Virus record (IMG/VR): IMGVR_UViG_3300043411_000696
Location: 1 to 40,046 of that record
From: a virus
Length of the DNA: 40,046 nt
Strand: one strand, 5' to 3'
Within the stretch, counting starts at the first letter, position 1. Each line of letters begins with the position of its first letter. The notes beneath the pieces were generated by a model. That model did not search any database and was not told the origin of the DNA. It saw nothing but the letters and a program-made list of their open reading frames with translations. Below, in pieces: positions 2,241-35,442 of the stretch. A program made the position numbers and the translations under genes.

Positions 2241-2453
2241 ATGGATTGGGACTGGGGGAAAATTCTTGAGCTTGCCATGTGGCTAACGACGGCGGCGCTC
2301 TCATGGGTTGCCGTAATCGGTGGGGCCGTGTGGCTGGTCAGGCAATTCGGGCCCGAGCGGTTGTTATTAGCTGGTCTATCGATGCTTGGAGGGGTCGGAA
2401 TAATTCATATCTTGACTATTCTGAAAGTGATGCCTCAAGTAATGGTAAACTAA
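2241..2453 (+). CDS. small membrane protein, two transmembrane helices, 70 aa
   Basis: Short N-terminal soluble segment (MDWDWGKILEL), then two hydrophobic helices around residues 12-33 and 40-62 separated by a short RQFGPER loop. It starts next to the upstream gene's stop with a GGGGGCG site. The size and topology resemble small phage membrane proteins, but it is far from the lysis module, so a holin call is not justified. A strong hairpin follows the stop. Confidence 0.65.
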   Translation: MDWDWGKILELAMWLTTAALSWVAVIGGAVWLVRQFGPERLLLAGLSMLGGVGIIHILTILKVMPQVMVN

Positions 2454-2460
2454 CCAAGGG

Positions 2461-2484
2461 CCGGGGGGCCGCAAGGTCTCCCGG
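2461..2484 (+). promoter_or_regulatory. strong RNA hairpin with GCAA tetraloop just before the next start codon
   Basis: Ten-pair stem (CCGGGGGGCC / GGTCTCCCGG, with two G-U pairs in RNA) closed by a GCAA (GNRA) loop. It ends 7 bases before the ATG of the 209-aa gene, where a Shine-Dalgarno would normally lie, and is followed by CGATTTT. It could sequester or replace the ribosome site, or act as a weak terminator or attenuator between the small-gene block and the recombination genes. Confidence 0.6.
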
Positions 2485-2491
2485 CGATTTT

Positions 2492-3121
2492 ATGCCGAAA
2501 CAAAAACGAGTTACTCGATACTGCGCCCCGACAATGATCCAAGTAGATGCGCTCATCATGGGGGCTTTGGAGTTATTATCTAGAGCCCGGGGGATGAGCA
2601 GCCGAATATATTTTAGGCTCTTAGTGCTCGAAGACATGGGGCGCGTTTCTTCCGAGGCTTGGCCCGAGGTGAGGAAAGCATTCGGCCCATTGATCTTTTG
2701 GGTGCTAGAAAAACAGCGGGGGGTTCGATTCCCTGAGAAGATTCAATGGAATCAAGGGCGGCAAAGATACGAGCTTGCACCGTTGAAGACAGATGCAGAT
2801 ATTCCGCGACTTGAGAAAAGGAAAAAAAAGGCTCAGGGGTCGCTTGATGACCTCGCAGCCATAACACCGCAGATCGCTTTTCAGATAGCAAGTCGACTCC
2901 TGTCCGGCGTTTCCCAAATATCAAGCGAAGCACCTGCTCCAGCATCTCAGTTAGCAAGGCTCGTTCTGGAATATTTAGATGATCGTGTTCTTCAGGCAGC
3001 GGAAGTAAACCGGCAACACTACGATGAGGGCTTGGGCTACTCATTAAAATCGCTCAACGATATAAAAGTTAACACCACAACAACAACAGGGGAAAATGAT
3101 GGAAACGACATCGACGAATAA
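2492..3121 (+). CDS. hypothetical protein, 209 aa, upstream of the exonuclease
   Basis: The frame is open from 2279, but the residues before MPKQKRVTRYCAP are a shadow of the overlapping membrane-protein gene, so the start at 2492 is chosen. There is no clear Shine-Dalgarno; a strong hairpin lies just upstream. The N-terminal half (MIQVDALIMGALELLSRARG) is helical; the C-terminal half is Ser/Ala-rich. It overlaps the YqaJ exonuclease start by 26 bases, suggesting co-expression with the recombination pair. I do not recognise the family. Confidence 0.65.
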   Translation: MPKQKRVTRYCAPTMIQVDALIMGALELLSRARGMSSRIYFRLLVLEDMGRVSSEAWPEVRKAFGPLIFWVLEKQRGVRFPEKIQWNQGRQRYELAPLKTDADIPRLEKRKKKAQGSLDDLAAITPQIAFQIASRLLSGVSQISSEAPAPASQLARLVLEYLDDRVLQAAEVNRQHYDEGLGYSLKSLNDIKVNTTTTTGENDGNDIDE

Positions 3122-5180: not shown

Positions 5181-5235
5181 GATTACGTCGTGGGGGCGAT
5201 TCTGCCACCACTTCTCCGTAAATGTGCAACGTGTG

Positions 5236-5264
5236 GCCCCGAGCGTAAAATCGGGGCGTTTTTT
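5236..5264 (+). terminator. intrinsic terminator of the recombination operon
   Basis: Stem GCCCCGA / TCGGGGC with loop GCGTAAAA, followed by G and six T. Textbook Rho-independent terminator on the plus strand, after recT. The next gene starts 10 bases after the T-tract with its own strong AGGGGG site. Confidence 0.88.
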
Positions 5265-5274
5265 AGGGGGAAAT

Positions 5275-5697
5275 ATGGAAAAGATAGTTTTGGAAAGTGG
5301 TGCGGTAATAGAGTTACAAAATCTGGACGACCTGCAAGACACCGGCCTGGAATACAAGGGTATTAAAATTTTCTCTTCGGCAAAGGTAGCGCCGAACGAG
5401 ATTCACTTCTTCGATACCCGCCGGCTGGCTGAGACCGGCCCGTTAGATCCTACTTGGACCCCATCCTGGCTTTGTGACGAGACAGAAGAGACTTTGCAAT
5501 GTTCTCGCGTTTCGCCGTCTCTGCGTTCAAGCCCGCGACTCCACCAGCCCAAGGTTGAATATTGTAGTTTTGAAACATGCCTGGATCTATTTTCCAGATT
5601 GCGTTCTGTGGCTGTCCTGGTCCAAACATTCCTTCTGGGTATGTTGATCCCGATTGTGCTCCTGCTTGTGATTGAGGGGCTGGGGTGGCTTTATTAG
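5275..5697 (+). CDS. hypothetical small protein with C-terminal membrane helix, 140 aa
   Basis: Starts at ATG 5275 (MEKIVLESGAVIELQNLDD), preceded by TTAGGGGGAAAT, a strong ribosome site just behind the recT terminator. The first ~58 residues look like a compact soluble domain. The remaining 80 are read antisense to the last 248 bases of the late operon's final gene and end in a hydrophobic segment (TFLLGMLIPIVLLLVIEGLG). The C-terminal half may be a real overlapping extension or simply readthrough into antisense sequence; the N-terminal half is better supported. Confidence 0.55.
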   Translation: MEKIVLESGAVIELQNLDDLQDTGLEYKGIKIFSSAKVAPNEIHFFDTRRLAETGPLDPTWTPSWLCDETEETLQCSRVSPSLRSSPRLHQPKVEYCSFETCLDLFSRLRSVAVLVQTFLLGMLIPIVLLLVIEGLGWLY

Positions 5698-30578: not shown

Positions 30579-31843
30579 TAGTCGTTCCTCACAGTAGGGT
30601 CTTTAATCTTCCAGCAATTACCCTTAGCCTTCAAAACTACGTTCTTAGGAAAGTCCTTTGCTGGCTTCTGGCTACGCCACATCTGCCGGTTACTCTTGTC
30701 CTCATTATACCGCCCTGAAAATTTTAGGGTAGATATCACTTCATCGCCCTTTGCCACGATAACGGATTTGAAATCCTTGAACTTTGCCGGGAGCATAGCA
30801 ACTGCGCCTGGGTGAACATCGCTCTGTTTCCAAAGGAATCCCTTCTTTGCCCCATCGTTTACTTTGTGAAAGGTAACACATCCGGGAACGGGGATCGCCG
30901 GCGCTGGCTCTCCTCGAGCAAATTCTTGGCGTAGCTTTTGAAAGATTTGCGGGGTCGGGAACCCGACTCGGTTTCTAGGATCGGTCCACTTGTTTGGAAC
31001 CTGAAGATTGAACGTGTGGTGCCATAGGTAGTTGCTACGACAGCGAGCCCCTTCTTCGATATAGCTATCTAGTTTTGATGTCCCAAATTCTACGTCATTA
31101 CCGTCAAGGTTTAGAATACATGGACGTGCGGGTCTAGCGTCGTATCCATGAAGCTCGTGATAATCAGCCCACTTTGCAGGGCCGCCGTGCTCTGGATTCC
31201 AAACTATCTGGCACTTCGGGAACATCGGCTTGATTACGTCCACGATGTTTCTTGCCTCCTGAGGGGAGAGATTACTCTCGAGCCCGGGAGAGATTAAGCA
31301 TGTAGTAGCCGAATCTAGTTTCTCGTTTAGAAAGTTAGCAAGCGGCATGACGTAGTCTTGAATCTTGGATAGAATCGGCCCCTTATTTTTGACTCCGTTT
31401 CGATACTTCGATTCAGACAATCCGCCGGCGAGCTCATAAGGCCGGCACTGCTTACCTGCTACTGCCTTCTCTGGCTCCATGCAAGTTTCGTTGATTAGGT
31501 GAACTTGGAATTCCTTTGGTCCCCAGCTTGTAAGGAATTTTTCGGCGCAAGAAAAATCTTCTCCGAACGTACCCCAGAGGGTTGAGATTCTTTTGACATC
31601 CTGGCCCTCGAGGGCGGCGAGTGATTTTTCACACGGCCACTGAGGGTGAAAGAATGCGTAGTACCCGGCCCCGAGATTATCGTCGGCTCTAGTGACCGAG
31701 GGCTTTATCGAGATACTGCATAACAGCAGCAAAAGTGCCAAGGATACTGAGCGAACCAAGTAGGATGTAGAAATGGGATTTGATTGGCATCGTGCGATCG
31801 ATATAGCTTGCTGCCCATTTTCCGATTGTATCGACTTTATCAT
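30578..31843 (-). CDS. exported protein of unknown enzyme class, 421 aa (lysis-module candidate)
   Basis: An unusually long n-region precedes a clear Sec signal (SVSLALLLLLCSISIKPSVT then RADD). The mature part reads like a barrel-type fold with repeated (V/I)-x-(L/I)-h-x segments (GYYAFFHPQWPCEKSLAALE, EFQVHLINETC, CQIVWNPEHGGPA), and is followed by a C-terminal domain. A glycoside hydrolase-like fold is my best guess, with no catalytic pair proven. AAGGTGG lies just before the ATG at 31843; a TTG at 31759 would give a normal signal peptide but has no ribosome site. It overlaps the holin-like gene by 155 bases. Confidence 0.6.
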   Translation of the reverse strand: MIKSIQSENGQQAISIARCQSNPISTSYLVRSVSLALLLLLCSISIKPSVTRADDNLGAGYYAFFHPQWPCEKSLAALEGQDVKRISTLWGTFGEDFSCAEKFLTSWGPKEFQVHLINETCMEPEKAVAGKQCRPYELAGGLSESKYRNGVKNKGPILSKIQDYVMPLANFLNEKLDSATTCLISPGLESNLSPQEARNIVDVIKPMFPKCQIVWNPEHGGPAKWADYHELHGYDARPARPCILNLDGNDVEFGTSKLDSYIEEGARCRSNYLWHHTFNLQVPNKWTDPRNRVGFPTPQIFQKLRQEFARGEPAPAIPVPGCVTFHKVNDGAKKGFLWKQSDVHPGAVAMLPAKFKDFKSVIVAKGDEVISTLKFSGRYNEDKSNRQMWRSQKPAKDFPKNVVLKAKGNCWKIKDPTVRND

Positions 31844-31976: not shown

Positions 31977-32080
31977 ATCGAAATCTGCTCCGACTGTTTG
32001 GATGTCCTACGGTTAGCTGTCTGCATCTTCCGCTTCTTGGAGCCCTTTTGTGGCTGGGTAACTAAATTACCCATACCCAT
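31973..32080 (-). CDS. candidate basic micro-protein, 35 aa
   Basis: MGMGNLVTQPQKGSKKRKMQ then T-A-N-R-R-T-S-K; strongly basic. The ATG follows TAAGGCGCTCG, and its TGA overlaps the holin-like start (ATATGA). Coupling argues for translation; function unknown. Confidence 0.5.
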   Translation of the reverse strand: MGMGNLVTQPQKGSKKRKMQTANRRTSKQSEQISI

Positions 32081-32088
32081 CGAGCGCC

Positions 32089-32559
32089 TTAGAGCTTCGC
32101 TTTTTCTTTGCATTCTGGTGGCAGCGTCGTGCATTGGGCATTCCTTACTGAAATTATGGCATCCTGGATCTGGTTTAATATTAACCAGGATTGAAATTCG
32201 GCGAAAGCCGTCTTGGAGTCTATGATGGCTACGCTCTTATTCCAGTCTGCAAATCCTGAGCCGGTTAGGATACATCCATCGGTATCGTTAGCATTATTTC
32301 CGGTATGAAATATGATATCCGAGCGGTTTGGTACGTTGATTAGCTTGAGCGTGTGGCCGTATCTTGGGCTATCGAAACGAACAGCGGAGTAGTCCCCTTC
32401 AGGGATACAACTTTCATTCTTTTGGTTGTTCTTCCACGGGGGCTCCATCGTTGCCAGTGGCCTCAGGATTCGCTTCACTGCCGAGAACCCCGGCACCATT
32501 AGTATCCCGAGACACCCGGAGGATGTGAGCAGATGTCTCAGTATCGAAATCTGAACCAT
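32089..32559 (-). CDS. DUF5675-family protein, putative lysis-associated, 156 aa
   Basis: The conserved pattern of this phage/prophage family is visible: MEPPWKNNQKNESCIPEGDY (38-57), then a beta strand, then NRSDIIFHTGNNANDTDGCI (78-97), where the family has an H-x-G-N...D-T-x-G-C signature. DUF5675 proteins are common in phages, often near lysis genes; catalysis is not established. The start at 32559 is inside the upstream gene, with AAAGGG six bases before it. Confidence 0.78.
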   Translation of the reverse strand: MVQISILRHLLTSSGCLGILMVPGFSAVKRILRPLATMEPPWKNNQKNESCIPEGDYSAVRFDSPRYGHTLKLINVPNRSDIIFHTGNNANDTDGCILTGSGFADWNKSVAIIDSKTAFAEFQSWLILNQIQDAIISVRNAQCTTLPPECKEKAKL

Positions 32560-32734
32560 TCATCGCCCTTTGCATTTTAGACTGTTTGTTTTCGCGCTCA
32601 AACGTGATGCGCAAATCTATGGCTCCGCGAACCCAACGAGAAAAGTCGCCAAGGTTGCCGATCCTGCCTTTGATATAATGCTCTTGATCTGGCCTCAAAC
32701 AAAAAGACTTGGGGCGGGAGCGCCTAACTGCCAT
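32414..32734 (-). CDS. small ribbon-helix-helix-like protein, 106 aa
   Basis: The start at 32734 (MAVRRSRPKSFCLRPDQEHY) follows GGGAGGGGAT, a very strong ribosome site; the longer frame lacks it. Basic N-terminal strand, then two helices in the pattern of a CopG/RHH DNA-binding domain, then a disordered acidic Gly/Ala/Asn tail. The last 146 bases also encode the start of the DUF5675 gene in another frame. A role as a small regulator is inferred. Confidence 0.6.
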   Translation of the reverse strand: MAVRRSRPKSFCLRPDQEHYIKGRIGNLGDFSRWVRGAIDLRITFERENKQSKMQRAMNGSDFDTETSAHILRVSRDTNGAGVLGSEANPEATGNDGAPVEEQPKE

Positions 32735-32779
32735 ATCCCCTCCCAACCCCAAATCTGACCAGATGCACGTTCTTGATGC

Positions 32780-32809
32780 TTGCCATTCCCTACCATTGTG
32801 TCATACAAT
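32780..32809 (+). promoter_or_regulatory. sigma70-like promoter of the plus-strand island
   Basis: TTGCCA (-35) and TACAAT (-10) separated by 18 bases, in the 94-base gap between divergent genes. The first coding ATG (32829) lies 20 bases after the -10, leaving a very short leader. TGTCATAC overlaps the -10 and recurs twice (as its reverse complement) in front of the right-hand operon. Confidence 0.55.
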
Positions 32810-32828
32810 TCCAGACAGTGCAATACTT

Positions 32829-33122
32829 ATGCTAACGAAAGAAGACCTAACCAGATGGATTCAAAGTGAAATTATCGGATGGCAAGCCGAAGCTGAACGT
32901 AGTCCAAGGACACATAAAACTCCCGGAGTCCTCGCCTACAGATTGGCAGAACGAATTGAAGTGCTGCTACTCGGAGCCAAGGAAGACGGGTTTTTGGTCG
33001 GGGCTTGCGCTGCGCGTGAGAGACCTGATGAGAGCGTGGAGGAGTTACAGAGCTCGTTCGCGGTACAAAAAAATGCTCGAGAACTGGGAGAACCATCCCG
33101 ATTTGAGGAATTAGAGCAATGA
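32829..33122 (+). CDS. hypothetical protein, 97 aa, first gene of plus-strand island
   Basis: The start at 32829 (MLTKEDLTRWIQSEIIGWQA) is preferred because the promoter lies just upstream; earlier in-frame ATGs fall before it. Helical, charged, no membrane helix. An alternative frame is also open over most of the gene. The stop overlaps the next gene's start (ATGA). With a very short leader and no good Shine-Dalgarno, translation may be nearly leaderless. Function unknown. Confidence 0.6.
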   Translation: MLTKEDLTRWIQSEIIGWQAEAERSPRTHKTPGVLAYRLAERIEVLLLGAKEDGFLVGACAARERPDESVEELQSSFAVQKNARELGEPSRFEELEQ

Positions 33123-33274
33123 GATATTGGCGGCCTTGGCTTCAGGAGACGGCGGCGCTGGTGAATAAAAGCGCAAAGTATATTTTTGCTACTCTCATCT
33201 TTTCGGGCTTAGTGCTCGCGAACCTGACCCTCATCACACTCACAGTAGCTTTTATGAAGTATCTTTTAACATGA
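33119..33274 (+). CDS. small membrane protein, single helix, 51 aa
   Basis: MRYWRPWLQETAALVNKSAK, then a long hydrophobic helix (residues ~21-46, YIFATLIFSGLVLANLTLIT onward). The start and stop both overlap neighbours as ATGA, so the three plus-strand genes look translationally coupled. It could be a membrane partner of the downstream membrane-anchored regulator. No family recognised. Confidence 0.6.
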   Translation: MRYWRPWLQETAALVNKSAKYIFATLIFSGLVLANLTLITLTVAFMKYLLT

Positions 33275-33813
33275 GCGATCTCGGATCTAGAATTCGTGAC
33301 CTAAGAGAAGACTCCTCTTGGTCGGCACACGACCTCGCAAAAGCATGTAATCTTAGAGAGAGATATCTTTTAGATATCGAAGAGGGAGCTATCCGTTTTG
33401 TTCACCCTCGAACGCTTGATAAAATCGCCGATGCTTTAGGCGTGACCTACGACGATCTGATAAAGCAAGATGATGGAGAACAAAATCAGAGCGTCGAGGA
33501 GGAACTGCCAGAGTCTTATCGTTGGTTTGTGAGGATGGTTATTCATACAATTCTCATCTTAGGGACTCTAAGTTTAATCGCAATTTTGTCGGTAATTGTG
33601 GGGCTAGGGATTTCAACTGTTTCAGTTTTTGACAAGCCCGCATCTCAGCTACGCTTATCGGAAGAAAATTCACCCCAATCTCCTTCAGAATTGAAAATAG
33701 ATTCGTTCCGAACGCTTGAACCTGAAGATACATTAGATTTAAGGGTCCAGGCTGATGGTACGCTCCTAATAGATGACCTACCTCATGGGCAGCCGTGGTC
33801 AAACTTGAAATAA
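33271..33813 (+). CDS. membrane-anchored XRE-family regulator, 180 aa
   Basis: N-terminal helix-turn-helix of the XRE/Cro type (residues ~4-65: GSRIRDLREDSSWSAHDLAK, then A-C-N-L and IADALGVTYDDLI), a transmembrane helix at ~88-118 (LILGTLSLIAILSVIVGLGI), and a ~60-residue polar tail probably outside the membrane. The arrangement resembles RodZ-like or signal-responsive membrane regulators. Last of the three-gene plus-strand island, coupled by ATGA. Its last 260 bases run convergently through the 3' end of the metallopeptidase gene. Confidence 0.72.
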   Translation: MSDLGSRIRDLREDSSWSAHDLAKACNLRERYLLDIEEGAIRFVHPRTLDKIADALGVTYDDLIKQDDGEQNQSVEEELPESYRWFVRMVIHTILILGTLSLIAILSVIVGLGISTVSVFDKPASQLRLSEENSPQSPSELKIDSFRTLEPEDTLDLRVQADGTLLIDDLPHGQPWSNLK

Positions 33814-34333
33814 ATCTTGGCGCTCCGTCCTGATTGAACATCTCAGCATTCGCATACGCTACTGGATTAGTCGGATCGCACACTGAGCTTGCGTAGCCGG
33901 CGAGCCAAAGTTTACCGCCAGATTGAATCGGGGGAAGGATTGCGAGGCCGATAGTATCTAGGCGCTTTTTTCGTTTCCTGAAGTAGTCTTCCCAGCGATG
34001 GAGCCTCATTATTCGGCAATTCCCGCTCAAGCAATTATAGTACGGGAATAAATCTTTGATTCTGCGATGTTCGACTATAACAAGGTCAATTCCAACCTGC
34101 TCTCTGAAAATTTGATTCATGTACCCGAACATCTCGAGCACTTTGGCTTTCGGGAGGGCGTGCGGCCCGGTAGTAGAGACTAAAAAAACGTCCTTCTTCT
34201 TTAATTTCTTAGGGGATTCCGCTTCGGCCCACTTAACAATCCCAAAAAAGATTGTCCAGCACGCTGCAACTACCGTGATGATGGAGACAACTATCAAAAC
34301 CTTATCGAGCGTAGTCGTTTTCTCGTCACGCAT
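33554..34333 (-). CDS. membrane-anchored metzincin-type zinc metallopeptidase, 259 aa
   Basis: A short cytoplasmic start, a transmembrane helix (LIVVSIITVVAACWTIFFGI, ~13-32), then an external domain. HEVGHLLGAYH (183-193) is the metzincin zinc motif HExxHxxGxxH, followed by a Met-turn-like NLMY (199-202). The Cys residues at 101, 106 and 152 could form external disulfides. Likely cleaves proteins at the cell surface, for lysis, receptor modification or superinfection control; the target is unknown. The HEXXH codons (33787-33755) lie inside the overlap with the XRE regulator gene. Last gene of the right-hand minus-strand operon. Confidence 0.75.
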   Translation of the reverse strand: MRDEKTTTLDKVLIVVSIITVVAACWTIFFGIVKWAEAESPKKLKKKDVFLVSTTGPHALPKAKVLEMFGYMNQIFREQVGIDLVIVEHRRIKDLFPYYNCLSGNCRIMRLHRWEDYFRKRKKRLDTIGLAILPPIQSGGKLWLAGYASSVCDPTNPVAYANAEMFNQDGAPRFISSLTTAAHEVGHLLGAYHQPGPLNLMYLQVQAFGTNLFSILKEIGVNFLPISVAEMRACQKLKQLKSLAPQLPTKLRLNLESLR

Positions 34334-34346
34334 AATTTTCCTATCG

Positions 34347-34604
34347 TTAATTAGCGAATTTTTGCCCCTGCTCGAGCGCCTCTCTTACTACTTCTACTTG
34401 CCTACAACGATTACCGAGCTCTTCCATATGCGCCATTGTCATCTCACCTAGAGAAGCAACAATTTGCTTACAAAAATCTTGCGTCACTGGTTGTGCTGTA
34501 AAATTATTTGGTAAAATCAAAACAGTTTGCAGCGACATCTGAAACGTCCCGTCTGCGCTCTCCTTAAAGTCCAATTTTCTTAGAATTTCCTTCGTGTCCA
34601 TCAT
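34347..34604 (-). CDS. hypothetical protein, 85 aa
   Basis: MMDTKEILRKLDFKESADGT at the start; helical Glu/Gln-rich end (CRQVEVVREALEQGQKFAN). Start fixed by an ATGA overlap with the VRR-NUC gene. No family recognised. Directly upstream of the metallopeptidase in the same direction. Confidence 0.62.
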   Translation of the reverse strand: MMDTKEILRKLDFKESADGTFQMSLQTVLILPNNFTAQPVTQDFCKQIVASLGEMTMAHMEELGNRCRQVEVVREALEQGQKFAN

Positions 34605-35017
34605 CTCTCTCCAGTGTCACAATACCACTCTATAATCTTCTTCGCATGATCCCATCCTTGGGCCGTGCGCACGCAGTTGCCTAAACTCAACAACATCTCC
34701 ATAACCTTTATCTGCTCTTCGCTTTCCTTGCCCCCTTCTCGCTTTAATTCGATATAGAGACTATGAAATCCCTTTCTGCCGAACGGAAACACCCAATCCG
34801 GGATACCTCTTTTTACGCCCATGCGCTTTAACTTAGCGCCAACCGAGATATGCCGATGCTCTCCGTTTGGAACATGGTACGCAGAAGCTAACTCCGGGTA
34901 CTTATTAACCCCAACCCTGGTTATCCATTCAAAAAGCGTAACGTGGTGGTCAAACTCGGACGGAGAGAATGTCTTTCTTTGGCGCTTCAACTGGGAGAAC
35001 CGAGATCTCGTAGCCAT
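34601..35017 (-). CDS. VRR-NUC domain nuclease, 138 aa
   Basis: Start at 35017 (MATRSRFSQLKRQRKTF), 8 bases after the stop of the Lar-like gene; the open frame continues upstream but without a plausible N-terminus. HVPNGEHRHISVGAKLKRMG then GIPDW, and the E-x-K element in YIELKREGGKESEEQIKVME, match the VRR-NUC family (PD-(D/E)XK fold; structure-selective or resolvase-like nucleases in phages and repair proteins). Probably cleaves branched DNA during replication or recombination, alongside YqaJ/RecT. Confidence 0.82.
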   Translation of the reverse strand: MATRSRFSQLKRQRKTFSPSEFDHHVTLFEWITRVGVNKYPELASAYHVPNGEHRHISVGAKLKRMGVKRGIPDWVFPFGRKGFHSLYIELKREGGKESEEQIKVMEMLLSLGNCVRTAQGWDHAKKIIEWYCDTGER

Positions 35018-35025
35018 TGATTGTC

Positions 35026-35442
35026 TCACTTCCCTGAAATGTAAATAAAGGGACTTCCCGGACTTGAATGTCCCCCCGGCGCTCGTTGCCAACGTATCGC
35101 ACCGTAATATCTTCGGGCGAGATCCCCAATATCACTAGCTGACGTAAAGCACGTTCCAGCGCCTTGTTCTGGAGTTGGATGCTCATCTTCGCCACATACT
35201 CTACAAAAGCTCGGAAGTTTGGGGTAGTCATCGGACACTTGCGCTTGAGATGAACAGGGCGAAGTCGCGCTATCAACTCTTCGATTCCAGATTGAGATTG
35301 CTCCATTTTTAGTTGGTCTCCAAATTTTAATGACAGGATTTACTGGGCAAGTTTTGTATCTACAGGCAATTCTCATATTGCCGTCTAAATATTCTAGGAT
35401 CGGATGCTTCCCGCAGAACGGGCACAACTTGATTGTTGTCAT
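35026..35442 (-). CDS. Lar-like zinc-ribbon protein (restriction alleviation family), 138 aa
   Basis: LCPFCGKHPILEYLDGNMRI followed by A-C-R-Y-K-T-C and AISIWNRR matches the Lar family pattern C-P-F-C ... C ... W-N-R-R, which in lambda-like phages relieves host restriction. The C-terminal part has an FCRVCGEDEH segment that may bind more zinc. ATGA overlap at the start. A second frame is fully open through the C-terminal 280 bases. Anti-restriction activity is inferred from the family only. Confidence 0.68.
   Translation of the reverse strand: MTTIKLCPFCGKHPILEYLDGNMRIACRYKTCPVNPVIKIWRPTKNGAISIWNRRVDSATSPCSSQAQVSDDYPKLPSFCRVCGEDEHPTPEQGAGTCFTSASDIGDLARRYYGAIRWQRAPGGHSSPGSPFIYISGK

Follow-up and report, generated by a model that had tools for sequence, protein, structure and literature searches.

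A 260-bp convergent overlap between the genes for a membrane-anchored XRE regulator and a metzincin-like protease in a phage genome

Layout of the locus and geometry of the overlap

The window, that is, the whole stretch of DNA that was analysed, is the virus record IMGVR_UViG_3300043411_000696 (40,046 bases), and the overlap described here was seen in this single genome. The record derives from a phage with genes for a P22-like portal, terminase, major capsid protein, RecE/RecT and a nuclease-like protein, most of its genes from 5.4 kb to 39.5 kb being oriented leftward. A short rightward cassette, preceded by a promoter-like sequence (TTGCCA-18-TACAAT at 32780-32809, of a kind that is frequent by chance), meets a leftward protease gene head-on. 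The features of the locus are as follows.

32829-33122, plus strand: first gene of the rightward cassette, 97 aa, with an ATGA overlap with the 51-aa ORF at 33119-33122
33119-33274, plus strand: single-TM ORF, 51 aa, with an ATGA stop/start overlap with the regulator ORF at 33271-33274
33271-33813, plus strand: XRE-TM regulator ORF, 180 aa, ATG start
33526-33630, plus strand: regulator TM helix, residues about 86-120, starting ~28 nt ahead of the overlap and continuing inside it
34333-33554, minus strand: metzincin-like zinc protease ORF, 259 aa, ATG start
33554-33813, both strands: convergent (3'-to-3') overlap, 260 bp with both stop codons counted, phase 123:132
33787-33755, minus strand: zinc-binding motif HEVGHLLGAYH, protease residues 183-193, opposite regulator residues 162-172
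33739-33728, minus strand: Met-turn NLMY, protease residues 199-202 (N199, L200, M201, Y202), opposite regulator residues 153-156

The regulator consists of a helix-turn-helix domain (residues 3-61), the single TM helix and a polar tail (122-180). Its N-terminal domain is a clear Cro/C1 helix-turn-helix, as in XRE regulators, with Pfam matches above cut-off to HTH_31 (3.7e-10) and HTH_3 (1.2e-7), Foldseek matches to viral HTH proteins and a generic match to the PADLOC capH model (2.4e-6); this domain sits before the overlap and not inside it. AlphaFold, run with no alignment, predicted a helix at residues 81-121, with block means of pLDDT 90-97 over residues 81-110, and this helix crosses into the overlap at residue 95. 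The tail was modelled with low confidence (pLDDT 40-50) and includes a weakly predicted beta-hairpin, TLDLRVQADGTLLIDD, at residues 156-168.

The protease has an N-terminal TM segment (residues about 9-35) followed by a catalytic domain in which HEVGHLLGAYH and the downstream NLMY conform to the metzincin pattern of HExxHxxGxxH/D with a Met-turn. It matched Pfam Reprolysin_3 above cut-off (3.8e-6), its best solved relative in the PDB was adamalysin II (1.3e-3), and the NCBIfam fragilysin model matched residues 178-208; the fragilysin and matrixin matches together span residues 175-211, which lie inside the overlap. Residues 228-246, after the Met-turn, we take to be probably the usual C-terminal helix of the family, as a weak AlphaFold model suggests (mean pLDDT of the single-sequence model, 35). 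No ImmA/IrrE peptidase match to the protease was found in the Pfam or NCBIfam searches, and assignment to that family was set aside, the Pfam matches being chiefly to metzincins and the only NCBIfam match to fragilysin.

A sequence-only reading of this DNA had described a 260-bp overlap between an XRE-TM regulator and a metallopeptidase, with the zinc motif and NLMY encoded opposite the regulator's tail and much of its TM helix encoded opposite the protease C-terminus. The ORF coordinates and a codon-by-codon table bear this description out; for the helix, the protease C-terminus is encoded opposite about 26 of its 35 residues. The phase arithmetic of that reading, which pairs first codon positions with each other and the wobble base of each frame with a second position of the other, also agrees with the table: plus-strand position 1 faces position 1 of the neighbouring minus-strand codon, plus position 2 faces minus position 3, and plus position 3 faces minus position 2. 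The stop of the plus-strand ORF at 33813 is unavoidable: whichever synonymous codons encode Phe174-Ile175 of the protease, a stop arises on the plus strand.

Coding signal in the two frames

We asked how often the plus frame would be open over 85 codons when protease amino acids 175-259 were held fixed and synonymous codons redrawn. The probability was 7.5e-5 with the codon usage of the phage, 9e-4 to 1.4e-3 with local codon usages and 1.5e-3 with uniform usage; the regulator tail alone was open at P = 0.002-0.012. When protease codons were permuted over the whole gene, openness was obtained at a frequency of 5.5e-4, and openness together with the observed hydrophobic helix in 0 of 20,000 permutations. 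Under the strictest null, in which codons were permuted only inside the overlap, openness was reached at P = 0.04 and hydrophobicity at 0.034, and the two combined at 0.0016. The plus frame in the overlap is thus open more than by chance. Also, among all shadows of the phage in the phase of the overlap, the two most TM-like 20-residue windows both lie in its two convergent overlaps.

Codon choice in the protease gene is unusual inside the overlap. Wobble C was found in 6 of codons 174-234, against 16.7 expected, and wobble A in 15 of codons 235-259, against 8.0 expected; the wobble bases outside the overlap displayed no clear deviation. The excess of A by itself is weak evidence, because genes throughout the phage show a mild increase in A-ending codons toward the 3' end (248 against 211 expected in the last 30 codons).

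We also used a log-odds score, based on codons and amino acids, for gene versus antisense shadow in the phase of the overlap, over 1,332 overlapping 85-codon windows of the phage. Genes scored +0.235 on average (sd 0.089, minimum -0.014) and shadows -0.249 (sd 0.095, maximum -0.018). The overlapping part of the regulator scored +0.043, which is above every shadow window, and that of the protease -0.067, which is below every gene window and above 99% of shadows; since the windows overlap heavily and amount to ~80 independent ones, these separations are to be read as about three sd on each side and not as exact probabilities. Outside the overlap the protease had an ordinary gene score (0.222). 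The synonymous-codon component of the score did not, by itself, separate the frames well. Within the regulator, the TM part scored 0.184 and the tail, over 60 codons, -0.022. A sliding six-frame score placed both frames near the best at 33675-33750, the plus frame being stronger toward 33600. Intermediate scores in both frames suggest double coding, of which they are the expected pattern. In the aggregate, the wobble, open-frame, permutation and log-odds tests detected coding signal in both frames inside 33554-33813, and these single-genome statistics, together with the domain matches, support the earlier view that both ORFs look like real products and that both are constrained. The active site is probably double-coding.

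The same phage contains other overlapping or antisense open frames. A second convergent overlap, at 5450-5697 (248 bp), has the same 123:132 phase; it joins a plus-strand ORF at 5275-5697, with an ATG start, an SD-like AGGGGG and a C-terminal TM helix, to a leftward 431-aa gene at 6745-5450 with a weak tape-measure match, and a terminator-like hairpin (CCCCGA..TCGGGG, then a T-run) at 5233-5262 lies just before the plus-strand ORF. Its TM-likeness exceeds that in whole-gene codon permutations (5e-5). Nevertheless, its plus frame scored -0.213, as a plain shadow, and its minus-strand gene 0.248, as a plain gene, so that coding signal in both frames was not detected there by the codon-style test. 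The log-odds test therefore discriminates, and does not reward any convergent overlap; antisense overlaps as a general pattern of this phage were set aside on the same result. An antisense ORF of 143 aa at 3044-2613, inside the plus-strand gene 2279-3121, forms an open shadow longer than in 400 of 400 codon permutations, and was rejected as a gene on its log-odds, which are those of a shadow. There is also a same-strand overlap of 155 bp at 31689-31843, between a 95-aa TM ORF (31976-31689) and a 421-aa ORF (31843-30578) that has a signal-like segment and whose true start may be later.

Search for relatives and proposed mechanism

Near relatives were sought in several ways. None came from scans of viral contigs with the protease, regulator, TerL, MCP and protease plus portal fragments, from a TerL-alignment scan or two genome contig scans, or from tblastn of phages with the protease, regulator, TerL, MCP and portal; the contig scans depend on short exact peptides and could overlook relatives of moderate divergence. 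The TerL matches in the collections searched were to distant phages only (about 24% identity), no match to the regulator or the protease occurred in 80 distant TerL loci, and no relative carrying both was found. A DNA scan for the zinc motif gave 67 loci with phage metzincins, and the best match to the protease among them, at a locus designated L098, had 41% identity over 80 aa (E 5e-13 in that small set). This metzincin (L098:2854-3498 in reverse-complement coordinates), encoded on a viral contig of 6,181 bp, has a signal-like N-terminus; the ORF immediately downstream of it is terminase-like, is 819 aa long and has an apparent intein-like insert. The metzincin gene adjoins that terminase gene and has no regulator or HTH gene opposite it, for which reason the overlap looks lineage-specific rather than general to the protease family. 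We compared the antisense open lengths at 68 phage metzincin motifs, among which the plus frame described here would rank second, at 214 codons; the first rank was taken by a contig of 69% GC and the third by L098, at 124 codons and with no sign of a gene. Metzincin 3' ends can therefore be stop-poor in this phase by chance.

No site resembling an intrinsic terminator was found at 32000-35200, where shuffled sequences average 3.4, and no inverted repeats of at least 10 bp within 60 bp were found near the locus. Transcripts of both units would therefore probably invade each other, and with such a layout mutual damping by convergent transcription is likely. To the left of the cassette, genes are again on the minus strand: a DUF5675 gene, along with small ORFs of membrane or secreted type, which we presume to be a lysis region.

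The reading that we favour is as follows. A putative rightward operon at 32829-33813, of three ATGA-coupled ORFs, ends with the membrane-anchored XRE regulator, the last 86 codons of which double as the antisense of the 3' third of the gene for a membrane-anchored, metzincin-like protease. With each wobble base opposite a second position, both sequences could be maintained together, the price being an odd choice of codons, and both proteins would be translated. Each transcript would run into the other, such that strong expression of one gene may damp the other through polymerase collision or antisense RNA; antisense control of one gene by the other is plausible from the layout. By analogy with Mtz, the phage-derived metzincin of Listeria, the protease would most likely act on the envelope, and the regulator would set when it acts. 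We judge it likely, for this one genome, that the long convergent overlap is genuine and joins two protein-coding genes, this mechanism included.

Alternative explanations and known systems

The overlap might be real only in part. The regulator could be a true product to about residue 121 (33633), with the 60-residue tail a chance read-through of the protease antisense strand, in which case the double coding that matters would cover ~80 bp and the active site would not be truly double-coding. The drop in log-odds from the TM part (0.184) to the tail (-0.022) and the low model confidence of the tail (pLDDT 40-50) are in keeping with this, as is the comparable open shadow in L098, where no gene is present. 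Yet the tail alone is open at P = 0.002-0.012, its log-odds exceed those of essentially all ordinary shadow windows, the hairpin TLDLRVQADGTLLIDD is weakly predicted within it, and wobble C is scarce in the protease codons that face it. On balance we regard a chance tail as unlikely, and give it some weight because an open shadow of 120 codons can arise opposite a metzincin where there is no gene. Considerably less probable is that a frameshift or a lost stop lengthened one of the ORFs. In annotated genomes of prokaryotes, long overlaps are for the most part such errors, and many of the convergent ones are extensions of 3' ends (PMC2478687), but here the zinc motif, the Met-turn and the likely C-terminal helix remain in frame to about protease residue 246, and the regulator TM helix is in frame across the overlap boundary. 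Because these elements stay in frame, neither frame breaks near the edge of the overlap.

A further proposal would add to the favoured reading and not replace it. The two products may also form a functional pair. Much as in ImmA-ImmR, CapP-CapH or IrrE-DdrO, but with the reaction placed at the membrane, the membrane protease would cleave its membrane-anchored XRE partner, and the overlap would keep the two together and mutually exclusive. The ImmR/ImmA, CapH/CapP and DdrO/IrrE proteins are soluble and are not known to be TM-anchored. Both proteins described here have a TM segment, the regulator HTH matches the capH model (2.4e-6), and mobile elements and defence systems repeatedly use an XRE repressor with a zinc peptidase as a switch (PMC10233336). 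As in those systems, an XRE-type regulator adjoins a zinc peptidase; in them, however, cleavage is known and the peptidase is of another family than the metzincin-like protease (HExxHxxGxxH) found here, the ImmR/ImmA genes form a two-gene operon rather than an antisense pair (PMC10233336), and the capH match is generic. We consider such a pairing doubtful. Least probable of all is a two-layer switch, in which converging transcription would allow either the regulator or the protease to be made but not both, and the protease would also cleave the regulator tail encoded opposite its own active-site codons.

The convergent overlap of two complete genes, which we prefer, belongs to a known rare kind of arrangement, and 33554-33813 is a real, unusual and well-supported member of it. 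Published surveys agree with the sequence-only reading that it is unusual: among 968 overlaps longer than 60 bp in prokaryotes, only 54 were perhaps real, all of them convergent, and no co-directional or divergent one was judged real (PMC2478687). In viruses, antisense frames account for 6.6% of overlaps, and DNA viruses have mostly short ones (PMC8903798). Among convergent overlaps longer than 4 bp, phase 123:132 is the most frequent (49%; PMC2174442). The present overlap resembles the long prokaryotic ones in being 3'-to-3', in exceeding 60 bp and in having the commonest phase (PMC2478687, PMC2174442). It differs from them in that its 260 bp hold a catalytic motif and most of the TM helix of the other gene, in that it occurs in a phage, and in that its support comes from single-genome statistics rather than from orthologues.

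The nearest functional precedent is the cI-cro / mtz-tim locus of Listeria, where CI/Cro-like XRE regulators control a phage-derived metzincin that sensitises cells to phage lysis (PMC8235301). The likeness lies in a phage-derived metzincin under XRE regulators; the Listeria metzincin is, however, secreted with a TIMP-like partner and its XRE proteins are a CI/Cro pair, whereas here one XRE-TM protein converges on the protease, and the text on the Listeria locus makes no mention of overlap or antisense (PMC8235301). The embedded antisense genes of E. coli O157:H7, such as asa, have antisense double coding in common with the present case (PMC6294744, PMC9927249). Those are extra ORFs antisense to a known gene, whereas here two neighbours overlap at their termini and, unlike in the asa type, each gene has a conserved domain of its own, that of the regulator lying outside the overlap. 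Opposed units with mutually invading transcripts are also a feature of excludon-type transcription, which is defined from transcripts (PMC7154746), whereas the likeness here lies in gene layout and in the lack of a terminator-like site.

Few well-supported long antisense overlaps join genes with independent conserved domains, and annotation errors make up the majority of reported cases. In the present locus the catalytic zinc motif appears to be double-coding, and 33554-33813 is set apart by single-genome statistics from the look-alike at 5450-5697. The locus offers a clean test case for how far an opposite gene can bend the codons of an enzyme, and also for the coupling, in antisense, of a phage regulator and a protease with a probable link to lysis.
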